Assembly: GCA_023301565.1 (NCBI GenBank)
Contig: JALZUO010000028.1
Coordinates: forward strand, 17,219-81,218
DNA from: Oligoflexales bacterium
Lineage (GTDB): Bacteria; Bdellovibrionota_B; Oligoflexia; Oligoflexales; JALZUQ01
Direction: 5' to 3'
Length of the DNA: 64,000 nucleotides
Every line of letters starts with the position of its first letter. The stretch's first letter is position 1. The notes under the pieces are model-generated. The model was given only the letters and a program-made list of their open reading frames with translations, was not told the DNA's origin and made no database searches. Position numbers and translations under genes: made by a program. Of the stretch, positions 5,541 through 27,063 are shown piece after piece.

Positions 5541-5963
5541 ATGTCAATAGGTCTTTTCTTTTTTCTATCTTTTCTTAGTGTTTTTATGTCAGCCGATGCA
5601 AATGCCGATGCAGTAAAAACCTATGTTTCTCAAAAGCAATCAACTCCTGAGTGCCAACCGATTCATGCGGTTAGCGCTAGGAAGATTTTCCAAGAACAAG
5701 AGCTTAGCGGTAAAACCAGAGTCATATGGTTTGCTAGCTGGTGCGGAGCTTGCCGGAAAAAAATAGCAGATTTGTCGGCTGCTGAGCTCAAGAAAACAGT
5801 TTTTGTAGGCCTTTTAGAAAGCCAAGCAAAGTCAAGTAGGGCACTAAAGGTCATGCTGCGGGGCAGGCAGGGGACGGTGAAGCTACCTTGCTACAGCGAT
5901 TCAAACGGGCAAGTAGCCGAGCTTTATAAGGTCTCGGGATTGCCGGCTTCTACGAAGCTCTAG
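5541..5963 (+). CDS. Thioredoxin-like (TlpA-type) protein, apparently C-terminally truncated
   Basis: Signal peptide; WFASWCGACRKK active site; GLPAST cis-Pro-like loop immediately followed by the stop. Confidence 0.65.
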   Translation: MSIGLFFFLSFLSVFMSADANADAVKTYVSQKQSTPECQPIHAVSARKIFQEQELSGKTRVIWFASWCGACRKKIADLSAAELKKTVFVGLLESQAKSSRALKVMLRGRQGTVKLPCYSDSNGQVAELYKVSGLPASTKL

Positions 5964-6174: not shown

Positions 6175-7338
6175 ATGAAATCGATATTTATTCTCCTAGT
6201 AATAGCTGTGTTTTTTGGGTTACCTGCCGTACGAGCGGATGCAAAGCCACTGTGTAACCTTGCTAGAAGTAAAGCCATGCTTGCAAAAAACAAGCTACAT
6301 GAAAAAATGTTTTCTTCAGTCAAAGCAGTCAAAAGTATGGAGCGTCGCCGTAGGATTGTTAAAGGTGTATTTGAACCTATTGCGCAAAAGCAGAGACTAG
6401 ACGTTTATAAAACAAAACACTCTTTAGACTTTCTTGAGCTCGATGCTTTGTCTCGCCGCGATATGTCCATCATAGATGCAGTGCGAGAATCCATTAAGAT
6501 TTCTGGGCTGGAAATAAGTTTTAAAAATAGCAGGATGAAGCTTGCCTCGGATGCAGCCTTATATGGTTTTACTGCCGACCAAGCCTTGGCTGCATATGAT
6601 GCTATGCAAAGTGAGATGATCAAACAGGGAGCCAACACGCGAAACTCGCTTTTTAAATGGGATGTCCAATCGGTTTCCTTGCTTAAGATGCTATCGACCT
6701 TGTCACCATCTGAGATTCTCAGCTATCAGCGGCGGGCGAAGATGCTACTGGGCCCTATTACGCCGCCTGCATGGGACGAAGTGCTTAGGGTTCATTTGAT
6801 GACTGGTGATTCTATAGAGTCGATTGTCGGTGCAGCAAAATCGATTACGAGTATTGCTGAGTTTGCAGAATTTTTTGATAATCACTCGGGCCACGACTAC
6901 ATATCAGTTGGGTTGATTCAAAATGCTGCTTTTTCGGGTAAATACGAAGTAGAAAAGTACGTGTTAGATTGGAAAGCAAGAAGGTCCAGCTTCGTCGACA
7001 CTCAGGCTGCCTACTCCCTGCTTTTTTCCTCTGTAACTTTAGCTAAGACCGTTTCTGAACTGCAAGAAGAACGGATGCCTAAACTAGTAGAACAAGTCAA
7101 AGAGGTGAGAGCAGAGCTGAAGTTGCCGCGTATCGGTCCAAAAAGTAATCTGATGGAAGTAATGGTCGCCTCCATGATTGAAAAAAGTGCTTTTCATGGC
7201 ATTAGTGACGATACCATACTCAAGGTTTACCGAGAGCTTCTTGTAAGAGGTTATGATGCTCAAGACATACCCGGTTACTGGGGAACGATGAATAAAGCCT
7301 TAAAGGCGGTTATTGCGGATAGCTTTCCTGTTATATAG
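6175..7338 (+). CDS. Secreted protein of unknown function (paralogue A of a tandem pair)
   Basis: Signal peptide MKSIFILLVIAVFFGLPAVRADA; extensive similarity to the translation of 7583-8753. Confidence 0.7.
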   Translation: MKSIFILLVIAVFFGLPAVRADAKPLCNLARSKAMLAKNKLHEKMFSSVKAVKSMERRRRIVKGVFEPIAQKQRLDVYKTKHSLDFLELDALSRRDMSIIDAVRESIKISGLEISFKNSRMKLASDAALYGFTADQALAAYDAMQSEMIKQGANTRNSLFKWDVQSVSLLKMLSTLSPSEILSYQRRAKMLLGPITPPAWDEVLRVHLMTGDSIESIVGAAKSITSIAEFAEFFDNHSGHDYISVGLIQNAAFSGKYEVEKYVLDWKARRSSFVDTQAAYSLLFSSVTLAKTVSELQEERMPKLVEQVKEVRAELKLPRIGPKSNLMEVMVASMIEKSAFHGISDDTILKVYRELLVRGYDAQDIPGYWGTMNKALKAVIADSFPVI

Positions 7339-7512: not shown

Positions 7513-7560
7513 CACTGTGTAATGTACCTACTTAGGCACACAGTTGGTCGGTTTTTTTTA
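7513..7560 (+). terminator. Terminator-like hairpin upstream of paralogue B
   Basis: ACTGTGT (7514-7520) / ACACAGT (7538-7544) perfect inverted repeat with nested CCT/AGG, then a T8 run at 7552-7559. Confidence 0.55.
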
Positions 7561-7582
7561 TTGTAGTATAGGGAAAAAATCC

Positions 7583-8753
7583 ATGAAGTTTATCGTCGGT
7601 TTGTTGTTATTGTGGGTAACCCTTGGAGTTAGTTTGACAGCAGGTGCTAGCCCTCGATGCAACCTTGTAAGGGTTGAAAGTAGACTAATTGAGAATAAAA
7701 ATAATGAACGGACCTTTTCAGCAAAAAACTCCGTAGACGCTATGGAACTTAGGGGCCAAGTTGTTAGGGCGATGTTTGTTCCTGTCGCGAAAAAAAATGG
7801 TTATAACTCTTCCAGTGTCGACGTTATTGTTAACTTGATGGAAATCCATGCTTCGCGGAGTAGAGGACCTTCGATAGCTGCTTCAGTGAAAGAATCCATG
7901 AAAATAACAGGAGTTGAAGTAGGTACATCAAATAACAGACACCAGCTTGCAATGGATGCAGCTACATACGGGGTTAGTGCTGACGAGGCTCTAGCGTTAT
8001 TTGACGATATGCAGAATGAAATGATCAAACAAGGAGCTAATACACAAAACCCAATTTTTAAAATCCGATGTTGAATCACTTGCGACGGTTAAAATGTTGT
8101 CGACCTGGTCACCACCTGAGGTTCTTCACTACCAACAGCTTGCTAAGAATTTACTTGGTCCCAATACCCCGTCAGCAGCAGATGAGGTTCTTATAGTCCA
8201 CCTTATGACATGGGAGTTAATTGAGACTATCGTTAATTCTGCAAAATCTATTACAGAAATAGCTGAATTCGCCAAGTATTTTGAGGACGGTGCAGACGGG
8301 GTAAATAGTTACTTTAGATCAGTCAGCTTACTTCAGTACGCTGCTTTTACAGGTCGTTCAGAAGTTAAGAGGTTTGTAGAAGATTGGAAGGTGAATAGAG
8401 ATAGCTTCACTGATCGTCCTTCTGCAGACTCTTTATTGTATTCTTCGGTAGTGTTGCAAAAAACTATCTCAGAATTGCGACGTAGTCGATTACCTACTAT
8501 AGCGAAAGAAATTAATAACATCAGAGCTGAGTTGAAGTTGCCTGTAGTCAGTTTTAGGGACCCATTTATGGAAAAGGCTGTAGCTGCTATCCTTGAAAAA
8601 AATGCTCTTCACGGGATTAGTGATAAGACAACTTTGAAGGCCTACAGAGAGCTTTTGGAAAGAGGCTATGGCAGAGACAGTGTAGAGGCTTTTTCGCGTC
8701 AGATGAGTAGTGCGTTGCATATGGTTGTGTTAGTTAGCTTTCCTGTCCTTTAA
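7583..8753 (+). pseudogene. Secreted protein of unknown function (paralogue B), frameshifted at about 8055-8063
   Basis: ORFs 7544-8074 and 8094-8753 together match paralogue A end to end. Removing one base from TTTTTAAAA (8055-8063) restores IFK-SDVESLATVKMLSTW versus LFKWDVQSVSLLKMLSTL. Confidence 0.75.
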
Positions 8754-10686: not shown

Positions 10687-11888
10687 TTATCTTCTTTTAG
10701 AGCCGATGATTTCTAAAAGTCTGTGGTCTAATAGCGCGTCGTCGAAGTTAGATAAGTCTATGTCTTCTATTGTTTCATTGGGTTTAATTGCTACATTGTG
10801 TTCGCTATTTCCCTTGTTAGGAACTCTAGTATCTGAAACAAAGCCGCTTTCTGTTCGGTAGGAGCGATATCTGGGTAGTTCGCTGGCTTGGCCAATACCC
10901 ACTTGTTCTTTGATTTTGGCACGGTTTTCAGATCTGGCGATTTGGCTGTAGTGCGAGCTGACTTTTGCGCTTAAGATTGCAAGGGCTGCTTTACGGTTTG
11001 CTTGCTGACTTCGGTGGTTGCTTATAGCAACGCTTAAGCCTGTGGGTCCATGCGTAGCTCGAATAGCTGTTGCTGTTCTGTTGACGTGTTGACCGCCGGG
11101 ACCACTAGCAGCAGCAAAGGCGACGATGTCAACTTCTTCTTCCCTAATGAAAACGTTGTTTTTAGGGTCTGGCGGGGTCACAGTCACAGCTAGTTTGTTG
11201 GTGAATACCTGCCCTTTACTTCCCCCGCCAACAGTAAATGTTTGAGCGCCAGCTTCAAAAATAAAGGTTTTATAAGCCTCCTTACCCCGTACGATCATAA
11301 AGACTTCTTTTAGTAGTTTAGTCTTGCTATCAACCGCTTCTTGAACGATTTCATGCTCAATTCCTTTCGCTCTGGCCAGTCTTTGGTAGCGGTTGTAAAG
11401 CTTCTCGAGGTTTATCTGGTTGTCCTTCCCACCACCTATTGATCGGATTTGAACTAAAAATTCAGTCTGCGAGTAATATGGGTCGTTGTATTTGAGTAGT
11501 TCGTCTCTCAGCGGGTCCCTAAGCTCTAGAGCTGTGGATAAAATGGATTTAGCGTGAACCTTAGCGGCCTGGGCCATGTCCGGATCTTTGGCGATTTCAA
11601 GGTATTCGGCTCTTTCTCTTAGGCTTCTACTAACTTTGTATACTTTGAGCTTATCGCGGTTATTTGGCTATTTTTTTCAGTACCTACATAAGTGCCGTCG
11701 GTGTAAGAGGAGTTGATGGCCTTCATTTGTGGTGCGATTTCTTTTTCGATGTAGTTAATCATTTCTACGAAGCCAGGGCCAAAACTGGCCTCATTTAGTT
11801 CTTCACATATGCTTGCGCGTATCGAGGTTGAAATTAAAACGAATAAGAAAAGCAAAATATTTTTGTAGGTTATGTATGATTTTTTCAT
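10687..11888 (-). pseudogene. Divergent class-I release-factor-like (RF1-type) protein with N-terminal signal peptide, split by a frameshift
   Basis: ORF 10687-11577 has GGQ (ASGPGGQHVNRTATAIRATHGPTGL) and RF1-like flanks; its frame is open upstream to 11667 (KVYKVSRSLRERAEYLEIAKDPDMAQ). ORF 11619-11888 in another frame supplies MKKSYITYKNILLFLFVLISTSIRAS...KLVEA, with RF1-like N-terminal helices at its end. Confidence 0.65.
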
Positions 11889-11943
11889 AAAAAATTATAC
11901 CAGGAATTTCCAGCTTCTGTTAGGTGAGCACGGGTTTGGGTAT

Positions 11944-12891
11944 TTAGCCTTCAATCGAGAGTCTCTTTCCTTTTTTATACGTCGCTAGCCCTTTGGGAAT
12001 AGCCTGCTGAACGACCTCCAAAAAAGCATCTAGGAGGGGTTTCTTCCACTGGTCGCGGCGAAAAACAAAGCTGACTTCGCGCATGGGGGTAGGGCCTTTG
12101 AAGGGTCTTACCATGGCGTCCTGCTCCTTTTTAGTTAGACCCTCCGCAAAAAGCTGAGGTACCAGTGTGTAACTATTCATTTTTTTTACAAGGTAACGCA
12201 GAGTTTCGAGGTTTCCGCCAGCAAACCTTACCCGGCCAAGGCGGCTAGTCTCAGCGTTTAGGTTGCAGTAGTTAATCACTTGGTTTTTAAAACAGTGACC
12301 GTCTTGCAAAAGCCAAAGCCCATCAGGACTAAGGTCTTTGACAGATACAGAGCTTTTTTTACTTAGCTTGTGGCTGGGGTTTCCGTAATACAAAAAAGGC
12401 TCGTTGAATAAAAATCTTTCTCTTAGCCCGGCTTCGTTTAGAGGGGTTACAAGGATAGCCGCGTCGATTTGATCGTCTCTAAGTCCTGCGACAATGTTTT
12501 CTGTTTTTAGCTCGTCTAAGACAAGGTCTACCTTTGGATATTCGCGTGCAAAATTTTCAATAAATAAAGGCACCAAGTAAGGTGTTAGGGTAGGAATGAT
12601 ACCGATGCGGATGTCACCTCGAAGCTCTGTAGCTGATTCGCTCCCGATAGATAGTAGCTTTTGGTGCTCTTGCTGCAAAACGGCAGCCTGCTCGAGGATG
12701 GCTTTACCCTGCTGCGTGCGTACGATGGGTTTTTGATTGCGGTCAAAAAGGACTACGCCTAGCTCATCTTCTGCCTTTTGCACCTGGATACTTAGGCTGG
12801 GCTGCGAGACGGCGCAGGCTTTTGCCGCAAGGCCAAAGTGGCGGTACTTATCTACAGCTAGAATATAACGTATCTGCGTTAGAGTAGGCAT
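11944..12891 (-). CDS. oxyR: LysR-family hydrogen peroxide regulator OxyR
   Basis: MPTLTQIRYILAVDKYRHFGLAAKACAVSQPSLS HTH; OxyR-like effector domain with LLQDGHCFKNQVINYC (conserved redox Cys region); divergent from ahpC. Confidence 0.88.
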   Translation of the reverse strand: MPTLTQIRYILAVDKYRHFGLAAKACAVSQPSLSIQVQKAEDELGVVLFDRNQKPIVRTQQGKAILEQAAVLQQEHQKLLSIGSESATELRGDIRIGIIPTLTPYLVPLFIENFAREYPKVDLVLDELKTENIVAGLRDDQIDAAILVTPLNEAGLRERFLFNEPFLYYGNPSHKLSKKSSVSVKDLSPDGLWLLQDGHCFKNQVINYCNLNAETSRLGRVRFAGGNLETLRYLVKKMNSYTLVPQLFAEGLTKKEQDAMVRPFKGPTPMREVSFVFRRDQWKKPLLDAFLEVVQQAIPKGLATYKKGKRLSIEG

Positions 12892-12920
12892 GTAAGACTC
12901 CAATAATGCACCATAAAAAT

Positions 12921-12937
12921 GATAGCTAAAAACTATC
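12921..12937. promoter_or_regulatory. Candidate OxyR-binding half-site
   Basis: GATAG-CTAAAAA-CTATC, a perfect inverted repeat matching the ATAG-N7-CTAT OxyR consensus, in the oxyR/ahpC divergent intergenic region. Confidence 0.6.
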
Positions 12938-13055
12938 GTTATAAATATATAATATATTTTAAATATCTGCAAAAAACGACGATTCTCTTATGTAAGGCAG
13001 CTGTTGCAGCTTGCAGCAGCAAACCAGATAAACGTACTTATGAATGGAGAAGAAA

Positions 13056-13592
13056 ATGATTGGAATAGGAAAACAGTTTCCCGAGTTTAATGTAACCGGA
13101 GTGAAATCTTCTGAGATGGATACAGCATTTGAGAAGTATAGTCATGAAAGTTTAAAAGGTAAGTGGAGTGTCATCTTTTTTTATCCAAAGGACTTCACCT
13201 TTGTTTGCCCAACAGAGATCAAAGGCTTTGCAGATCTAAACGGGGAGTTTGCCGATAGAGATACGCAAGTATTTACAGCAAGTATAGACTCTGAGTTTGT
13301 CCACCTTGCTTGGCGTCAAAGTCACGAAGACCTAAAAAACTTACCGTTTCCTATGCTATCAGATGTAAAAAGGGAGCTATCATCAAGTTTAGGGATCCTA
13401 GACCCAGAAGAAGGCGTATCGCAAAGAGTGGCCTACATTGTGGATCCAGGCGGCATCATTCGGTTTGTGTATGCAACTGATTTGAACGTGGGAAGAAACC
13501 CGGCAGAGGTTTTGCGCGTACTTGATGGTCTGCAAACTGACGAGCTATGCCCGTGCAACTGGAAACCAGGCGAAGAAACGATTCAAGTTTAA
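13056..13592 (+). CDS. ahpC: Alkyl hydroperoxide reductase subunit C / peroxiredoxin
   Basis: FYPKDFTFVCPTEIKGFAD; resolving Cys CPCNWKPGE. Confidence 0.95.
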   Translation: MIGIGKQFPEFNVTGVKSSEMDTAFEKYSHESLKGKWSVIFFYPKDFTFVCPTEIKGFADLNGEFADRDTQVFTASIDSEFVHLAWRQSHEDLKNLPFPMLSDVKRELSSSLGILDPEEGVSQRVAYIVDPGGIIRFVYATDLNVGRNPAEVLRVLDGLQTDELCPCNWKPGEETIQV

Positions 13593-13622
13593 ACCACAAC
13601 ACCTTAAAGAGGAGAAAAACCT

Positions 13623-14135
13623 ATGCAAGCGATTAAAGAACTTATACCGGATTTTGCCAAAGACGTGCGAATCAACTTTTCATCTATTACCGGGGATCTT
13701 GGCGCCCCGGGTCTAAGCCAAACCCAGGCGCATGGCGTGCTTTTATCAGCAGCTCTCCAGCTGGGTTTTGATCAACTTAGCAAAGAGATCGCAAACGCTG
13801 ATACTTTGAACGAGCAGGAAGTGCTTGGCGTAAAAGCTGCCGTTGCAATCATGGGTATGAATAATATTTACTATAGAACCATGCACCTAATGAGTGACAA
13901 AGAAGTAAAGTCCTTGCCTGCTAAGCTTCGAATGAACGTGATTGGCTCGCCACCAAACGAGAAAATCAACTTTGAAATATACTCGCTGGCTGTTTCTGTT
14001 CTTTCTGGCTGCGGAATGTGTATCAACGCTCATGTAAATGAATTAAAGAAAGCTGGACTAGGAAATGAAGGGGTTCAATCGATCATCCGTATTGCATCGG
14101 TCGTAAATAGCGCTTTTATAAGTACAAGGCTTTAG
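13623..14135 (+). CDS. ahpD: Alkylhydroperoxidase AhpD
   Basis: SGCGMCINAHVNELKKAGL CxxC motif; adjacent to ahpC. Confidence 0.93.
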   Translation: MQAIKELIPDFAKDVRINFSSITGDLGAPGLSQTQAHGVLLSAALQLGFDQLSKEIANADTLNEQEVLGVKAAVAIMGMNNIYYRTMHLMSDKEVKSLPAKLRMNVIGSPPNEKINFEIYSLAVSVLSGCGMCINAHVNELKKAGLGNEGVQSIIRIASVVNSAFISTRL

Positions 14136-26206: not shown

Positions 26207-26890
26207 TTAAAATGGGTCAAACAAGGTCCAACGCTTGGTTCTTGGGTTGAACACTATATTGTCGGATTTAAAGATTACTTTTTGAGGTAACCTGAATTCT
26301 TTTGGCAGAAGGTTGGGAACAGGAAGATCGAAAACGTAGGTGCCGTCCAAGGTTCGTGATCGATAAAACTGTTTGCCGGAAATCACTTTAACCTTGCAGC
26401 TATGTCGCTCGCAGATATCCTCAGCTAGTTTTCGAAACGTCTCGTTAAAGCTACTCTGCATCTTTTGCTTCTGAACAGACCCATCACCTAGACCTAAGAG
26501 ATAGTCGTGGGCAGTTCGGGGTTTGACATAGTCCATAAAGACCGTCCGCGGCATACTTTGCGAATAAGCACGGCTAACTATATCCACTTTCATTTCTGAA
26601 AATATATCCTCAAACTCTGCAAGCCACTCAAACCGGGCCTTATCAGCTATATATTTGCTGTCGGTCAAATATGTTTTGGCGACGTACTCGTCTCCATGCT
26701 CACCTTTAAGCTTCGTCACGATAGAATTAAGATCTTCAGAAAGCACTTCGACGTTTGAAAAACTCTTTTTTGTACCACCAAAGAAATGAGCTGCTAGAGC
26801 CTCTAGGCGCTTGCAAGCTTGTACTTGCTCTGCCGGTGAAAACAAAAGCAACACGATAAAAGTAAAAAGAAGCATTAAGAGTTGGTTCAT
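26207..26890 (-). CDS. Secreted protein of unknown function
   Basis: Signal peptide MNQLLMLLFTFIVLLLFSPAEQVQA; start adjusted from ORF 26923. Confidence 0.55.
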   Translation of the reverse strand: MNQLLMLLFTFIVLLLFSPAEQVQACKRLEALAAHFFGGTKKSFSNVEVLSEDLNSIVTKLKGEHGDEYVAKTYLTDSKYIADKARFEWLAEFEDIFSEMKVDIVSRAYSQSMPRTVFMDYVKPRTAHDYLLGLGDGSVQKQKMQSSFNETFRKLAEDICERHSCKVKVISGKQFYRSRTLDGTYVFDLPVPNLLPKEFRLPQKVIFKSDNIVFNPRTKRWTLFDPF

Positions 26891-27063
26891 AAAAAAGCGC
26901 TCCCAGGCTGCGTTTGGACGCATTGTCGCAAATTTAAAATGAATTTACGTAGCTACTATAGCATGAGGGCATAGTTGAGATGGCTCCTCTCGGTTTGTAC
27001 TTTCGATCTTAGAAATCCTCGCCTAAGCAAGCATGGTAGGTGCTAAACGCTTGTAGGCTCCAC

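Follow-up and report, generated by a model that had tools for sequence, protein, structure and literature searches.

RF1-derived proteins with an N-terminal targeting sequence are represented by mtRF1 and mtRF1a, and the codon loop is altered in mtRF1. The class-I release factor variants surveyed in bacteria are RF1, RF2, ArfB, and RF-H (PMC6514570). RF-H (PrfH) is without domain 1 and is associated with rtcB (PMC1586002; PMC6514570). No exported bacterial release factor was found in the literature searched.

The release factor-like (RF-like) protein described here is encoded on the minus strand of the window (the whole stretch of DNA analysed, 64 kb) and differs from all four surveyed bacterial variants in architecture or targeting. 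It resembles RF1 (prfA, TIGR00019) most, having the full domain order (PCRF domain 1/2, GGQ domain 3, and domain 4), with RF1 as the closest profile (150.8 bits) and E. coli RF1 as the closest fold. Unlike RF1, it scores below the cut-off of 423, has lost the PxT loop, has a predicted signal peptide, and is broken in frame; its switch loop is SYRTES instead of TYNFPQ, and there is a C-terminal insert of about 8–10 residues. With RF-H it has in common the GPGGQ version of the loop and the status of a third, non-standard class-I release factor with an altered codon-recognition region, but it has domain 1, and nothing like rtcB was seen next to its gene. ArfB/YaeJ, a GGQ hydrolase without codon reading, would be the model for the working of the protein, although ArfB has just the GGQ domain and a helical tail at its C-terminus and the RF-like protein has the full RF1 architecture. 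Finally, mtRF1 and mtRF1a are eukaryotic, their presequence is not a Sec signal, and their similarity to the RF-like protein is lower than that of bacterial RF1.

Gene Layout and Reading Frames

The RF-like gene is carried by two frames of the minus strand, 11888-11619 (89 codons) followed by 11667-10687 (326 codons), with these features:

11894..11923, minus strand, promoter-like CTAACA-18-TATAAT with TG extension, directly before the ATG, 10/12 matches
11619..11888, minus strand, 5' part of the gene, with a signal-peptide-like start and the putative first helices of an RF1-type domain 1, ending with TAA at 11621-11619
11814..11888, minus strand, predicted Sec signal peptide MKKSYITYKNILLFLFVLISTSIRA with putative cleavage IRA^S (from sequence and a charge/hydrophobicity rule)
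11619..11667, minus strand, overlap of the frames, where the reading frame shifts by -1
10687..11667, minus strand, 3' part of the gene, with the rest of domain 1, a degenerate domain 2/4, and the GGQ domain 3
11199..11256, minus strand, region in place of the RF1 codon-recognition loop, around AGAQTFTVGGGSKGQVFTN (from alignment)
11035..11106, minus strand, GGQ catalytic loop SGPGGQHVNRTATAIRATHGPTGL, its GGQHVN core the same in all 30 RF1s compared

The ORFs listed are 10687-11577 (-) and 11619-11888 (-), each with an ATG. Both ORFs, and the openness of the release factor (RF) frame up to 11667, are as the preliminary description gave them; TAG at 11670-11668 closes the 5' side. Inspection of the sequence revealed no ATG, GTG, or TTG in the RF frame before 11577, and no ribosome-binding site was seen there. 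Relative to the 5' frame, the RF frame is displaced by -1, which corresponds to one base lost or two gained within 11667-11619, and the one-base shift proposed earlier for this overlap is indeed present. A leaderless start from the promoter-like site just 5' of the ATG is a weak possibility; one such site was found versus 1.3 expected by chance.

Homology to Release Factors

The RF frame encodes a full-length class-I release factor homologue, most likely derived from RF1. Pfam recognized in it the RF-1 domain (PF00472; E 1.9e-23, 83 bits against a cut-off of 35) and PCRF (E 1.9e-13, 51.1 bits against a cut-off of 24). The best NCBIfam model is that of RF1, even though its score is far below the cut-off, and the match covers model positions 58-326 of 361, far beyond chance. 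The other models scored lower, namely RF2 (prfB, TIGR00020) with 101 bits against a cut-off of 370 and with the SPF motif absent, RF-H (TIGR03072) with 78 bits against 166.65, and ArfB with 35 bits against 100. The closest solved structures in PDB are RF1s. The AlphaFold (AF2) model has pLDDT 77 and pTM 0.65, and its top PDB match is ribosome-bound E. coli RF1 (E 1.5e-18); because its input alignment consisted of 30 RF1s, the model indicates compatibility with the release factor fold and is not an independent proof of it. Profile and structure matches span the whole body, which bears out the likeness to RF1 first noticed by eye, and the refuting alternative of a match confined to the GGQ loop fails.

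GGQ Domain and Codon-Recognition Region

The RF-type GGQ loop reported earlier is present with GGQHVN intact, and alignment with RF1 agrees that a normal PxT codon-recognition motif is missing. The RF1 stretch HRVQRVPxTESQGRxHTS stands opposite AQTF--TVGGGSKGQVFTN, so the PxT, the HRVQRVP stretch, and the conserved His of HTS are lost and two residues are deleted; TVGGG and F occupy the places of the PxT motif and of the decoding His. Most of the RF1-conserved positions of the switch loop are also gone. When 72 positions conserved at ≥92% in the RF1s compared were taken as the RF1-invariant set, the RF-like protein retained 38/72, while the worst of the canonical RF1s compared loses 5/72. Retention is 17/20 in the GGQ domain versus 21/52 elsewhere (Fisher p = 0.0012), and such unevenness means that the decay was not uniform. 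Judging from this one sequence, the hydrolase domain seems to have stayed constrained after codon reading vanished. Codon specificity would be lost in practice, and the GGQ domain is predicted to have peptidyl-tRNA hydrolase activity.

Other Release Factors, Relatives, and Neighbourhood

The source genome is a single draft of 2.78 Mb in 184 contigs with a completeness of 92%. Canonical prfA and prfB, suggested earlier as a check, were both found there: prfA as a 354-aa frame with HRVQRVPVTES, and prfB as a normal gene with the classical autoregulatory CTTTGAC +1 frameshift site (GGGGGTTTCTTTGAC). A separate ArfB-like gene was also identified. With these ordinary genes present, the RF-like gene is an extra paralogue, that is, a third and highly divergent class-I release factor gene.

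Whole-genome searches revealed no orthologue in 58 genomes of the phylum at E<=1e-30 and none in 383 genomes of 320 genera (phylum included) at 1e-36; additional sets of 54, 17, and 386 genomes, in part shared with the earlier ones, had none either. Peptide patterns of the whole protein found no relatives in genome and virus contigs, nor did a pattern of the GGQ segment in virus contigs. A relaxed DNA pattern of the GGQ flanks recovered ordinary RF1/RF2 in the sequences examined among the matches listed, and these RF1/RF2 sequences were used as the comparison set; rare orthologues may exist in the genome collection beyond the matches listed. Low-identity matches in phage and plasmid collections are annotated as ordinary RF1/RF2 wherever annotation exists. 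No intact relative with a signal peptide was found in the genomes and collections searched, and, as there is no orthologue among them, the signal peptide is a putative part of the RF-like protein. In the free trees the protein falls on the RF1 side, its end branch measuring 7.3, and the AU test does not reject its grouping with RF2. This branch is too long for origin from the organism's own RF1 to be distinguished from import.

An oxyR-like gene on the same strand precedes the RF-like gene by 55 bases, and on its other side a gene for a RoxA-like cytochrome converges with it. A genome of the same family also has the RoxA-like gene, without the RF-like gene beside it. Identity as RF-H was rejected, given the presence of domain 1, the oxyR-like and RoxA-like neighbours, and the 78 bits against 166.65. 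The OxyR-like regulator is divergent from genes for alkyl-hydroperoxide-reductase-like AhpC and AhpD (window 11944-14135). Elsewhere in the window, an exported thioredoxin-like protein (5541-5963, +) ends right at the expected cis-proline (VSGLPASTKL*), and its C-terminal part seems to be missing; an exported-looking protein at 26207-26923 (-) has no Pfam or PHROG match.

N-Terminal Frame and Predicted Export

The 5' frame begins with MKKSYITYKNILLFLFVLISTSIRAS, a K-rich charged start followed by a hydrophobic core. Signal-peptide-likeness was judged by a simple home-made charge/hydrophobicity rule, which this start passes, in agreement with the earlier recognition of a signal-peptide-like start in a second frame; the segment and the RF body are not in the same frame. 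By the same rule, 0/152 other release factor homologues have a signal-like N-terminus, while 12/590 (2%) of the Met-started stretches in the window pass, true exported genes among them. The RF-like protein would be exported, and the charge distribution (positive-inside rule) suggests that its RF body would lie outside the membrane.

According to codon usage, with a model trained on 20 conserved genes of the window, the 5' frame 11888-11619 is clearly coding. The log-odds over 11888-11668 are +17.7 for the signal frame versus -26.8 and -18.3 for the other frames, and the positive score passes to the RF frame from the overlap onward. Taken by itself, the 89-aa frame has no match to RF1. A -1 join late in the overlap lifts the profile score from 150.7 to 155.3 bits, and 15/1000 shuffles of the N-terminal part reached the same gain (about 4.5 bits), which gives modest support to the 5' frame as the supplier of the missing RF1 N-terminal helices. 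The codon-usage switch at the predicted place and the alignment gain at the -1 junction speak for one protein split across the frames, as had been proposed.

Frame Break and Alternative Explanations

Programmed -1 frameshifting was rejected, as no X XXY YYZ slippery heptamer occurs in 11671-11619. With the frame broken and such a signal missing, the gene is probably a young pseudogene, recently inactivated; codon usage is still fully gene-like over its whole length, so any decay must be very recent. The A7 run near 11675, as the site of a homopolymer error, was ruled out as the cause of the shift, because TAG at 11670, downstream of the run, closes the RF frame. Apart from this locus, the frame scan of the whole window detected a clear switch of frame inside one gene, at about 8064 and 3.6 kb away, and found the long conserved genes unbroken. 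The gene with this switch belongs to a tandem pair of exported orphans at 6175-7338 and 7544-8753 (+), which are 44–52% identical and have no convincing Pfam match; the second copy (7544-8753) is split by the frameshift near 8064. A second switch in a non-conserved exported gene, with the conserved genes intact, favours real decay over random assembly errors, without proving it. The same observation counts against the rather unlikely case that the gene is intact and active, the shift being an assembly or sequencing error, and that it codes for a codon-blind RF1-like protein that is exported and either tethered to the membrane, periplasmic, or secreted. Such an error would agree with the presence of just one disruption in roughly 400 codons, with codon usage that is gene-like from end to end, with the stronger conservation of the catalytic domain, and with the origin from a single draft genome in 184 contigs, but the overlap 11619-11667 has no long homopolymer and no intact relative was found in the genomes searched.

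Quite unlikely is a decaying cytosolic RF1 paralogue starting near Met43, with the signal-like stretch as a chance reading or a recently fused fragment. Met43 is close to the aligned start of a normal RF1, codon-usage support is lowest over the first 40 codons, and the frame scan assigned this stretch to another frame; nevertheless, of the three frames there, the one with the signal peptide still scores best, few stretches combine a K-rich start with a properly spaced hydrophobic core (the 12/590 above, true cases included), and no ribosome-binding site precedes Met43. That the locus consists of two separate genes, for a small exported 89-aa protein and for an N-terminally shortened RF-like protein from 11577, is most improbable. 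Both ORFs do have an ATG, but the 5' frame gives exactly the missing RF1 N-terminal helices with the right spacing, the coding frame of the second ORF extends far beyond its ATG in the 5' direction, as far as the overlap, and no ribosome-binding site precedes 11577.

Proposed Origin and Significance

The explanation we regard as fairly probable is that the gene coded for a peptidyl-tRNA hydrolase derived from RF1 and blind to stop codons, which was produced as a Sec pre-protein, and that it was recently inactivated. A third class-I release factor gene would have arisen from RF1 and diverged far from its parent, losing stop-codon reading with the PxT loop, HRVQRVP, the decoding His, and most switch-loop residues, while the GGQ peptidyl-tRNA-hydrolase domain and the release factor fold would have been retained. 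A Sec-type N-terminal signal of about 25 residues would have been acquired, so that the intact form would be a pre-protein threaded across the inner membrane, which could act on ribosomes, if at all, only beyond the cytoplasm of its own cell; codon-independent peptide release would be its most likely biochemical activity. A one-base shift in domain 1 would then have broken the frame in this genome. Overall, the exported RF1-type protein of the preliminary description, split by a shift and without normal codon recognition, is supported by profiles, model, codon usage, and the presence of prfA and prfB. Of the two outcomes considered there, decay and repurposing, the sequence fits both, with constraint on GGQ after the loss of codon reading and a frame that is now broken.

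To our knowledge, release factors act only inside ribosomes, so an exported codon-blind GGQ paralogue has no obvious workplace. An intact release factor that is exported, blind to codons, and frees unfinished peptides on foreign ribosomes is very unlikely to be made by this organism or its close relatives; if true, the release factor fold would have been converted into a secreted protein directed against translation. Present as one broken copy, the gene is more a curiosity than a system. It would represent a new use of the release factor fold if it proved real and functional.
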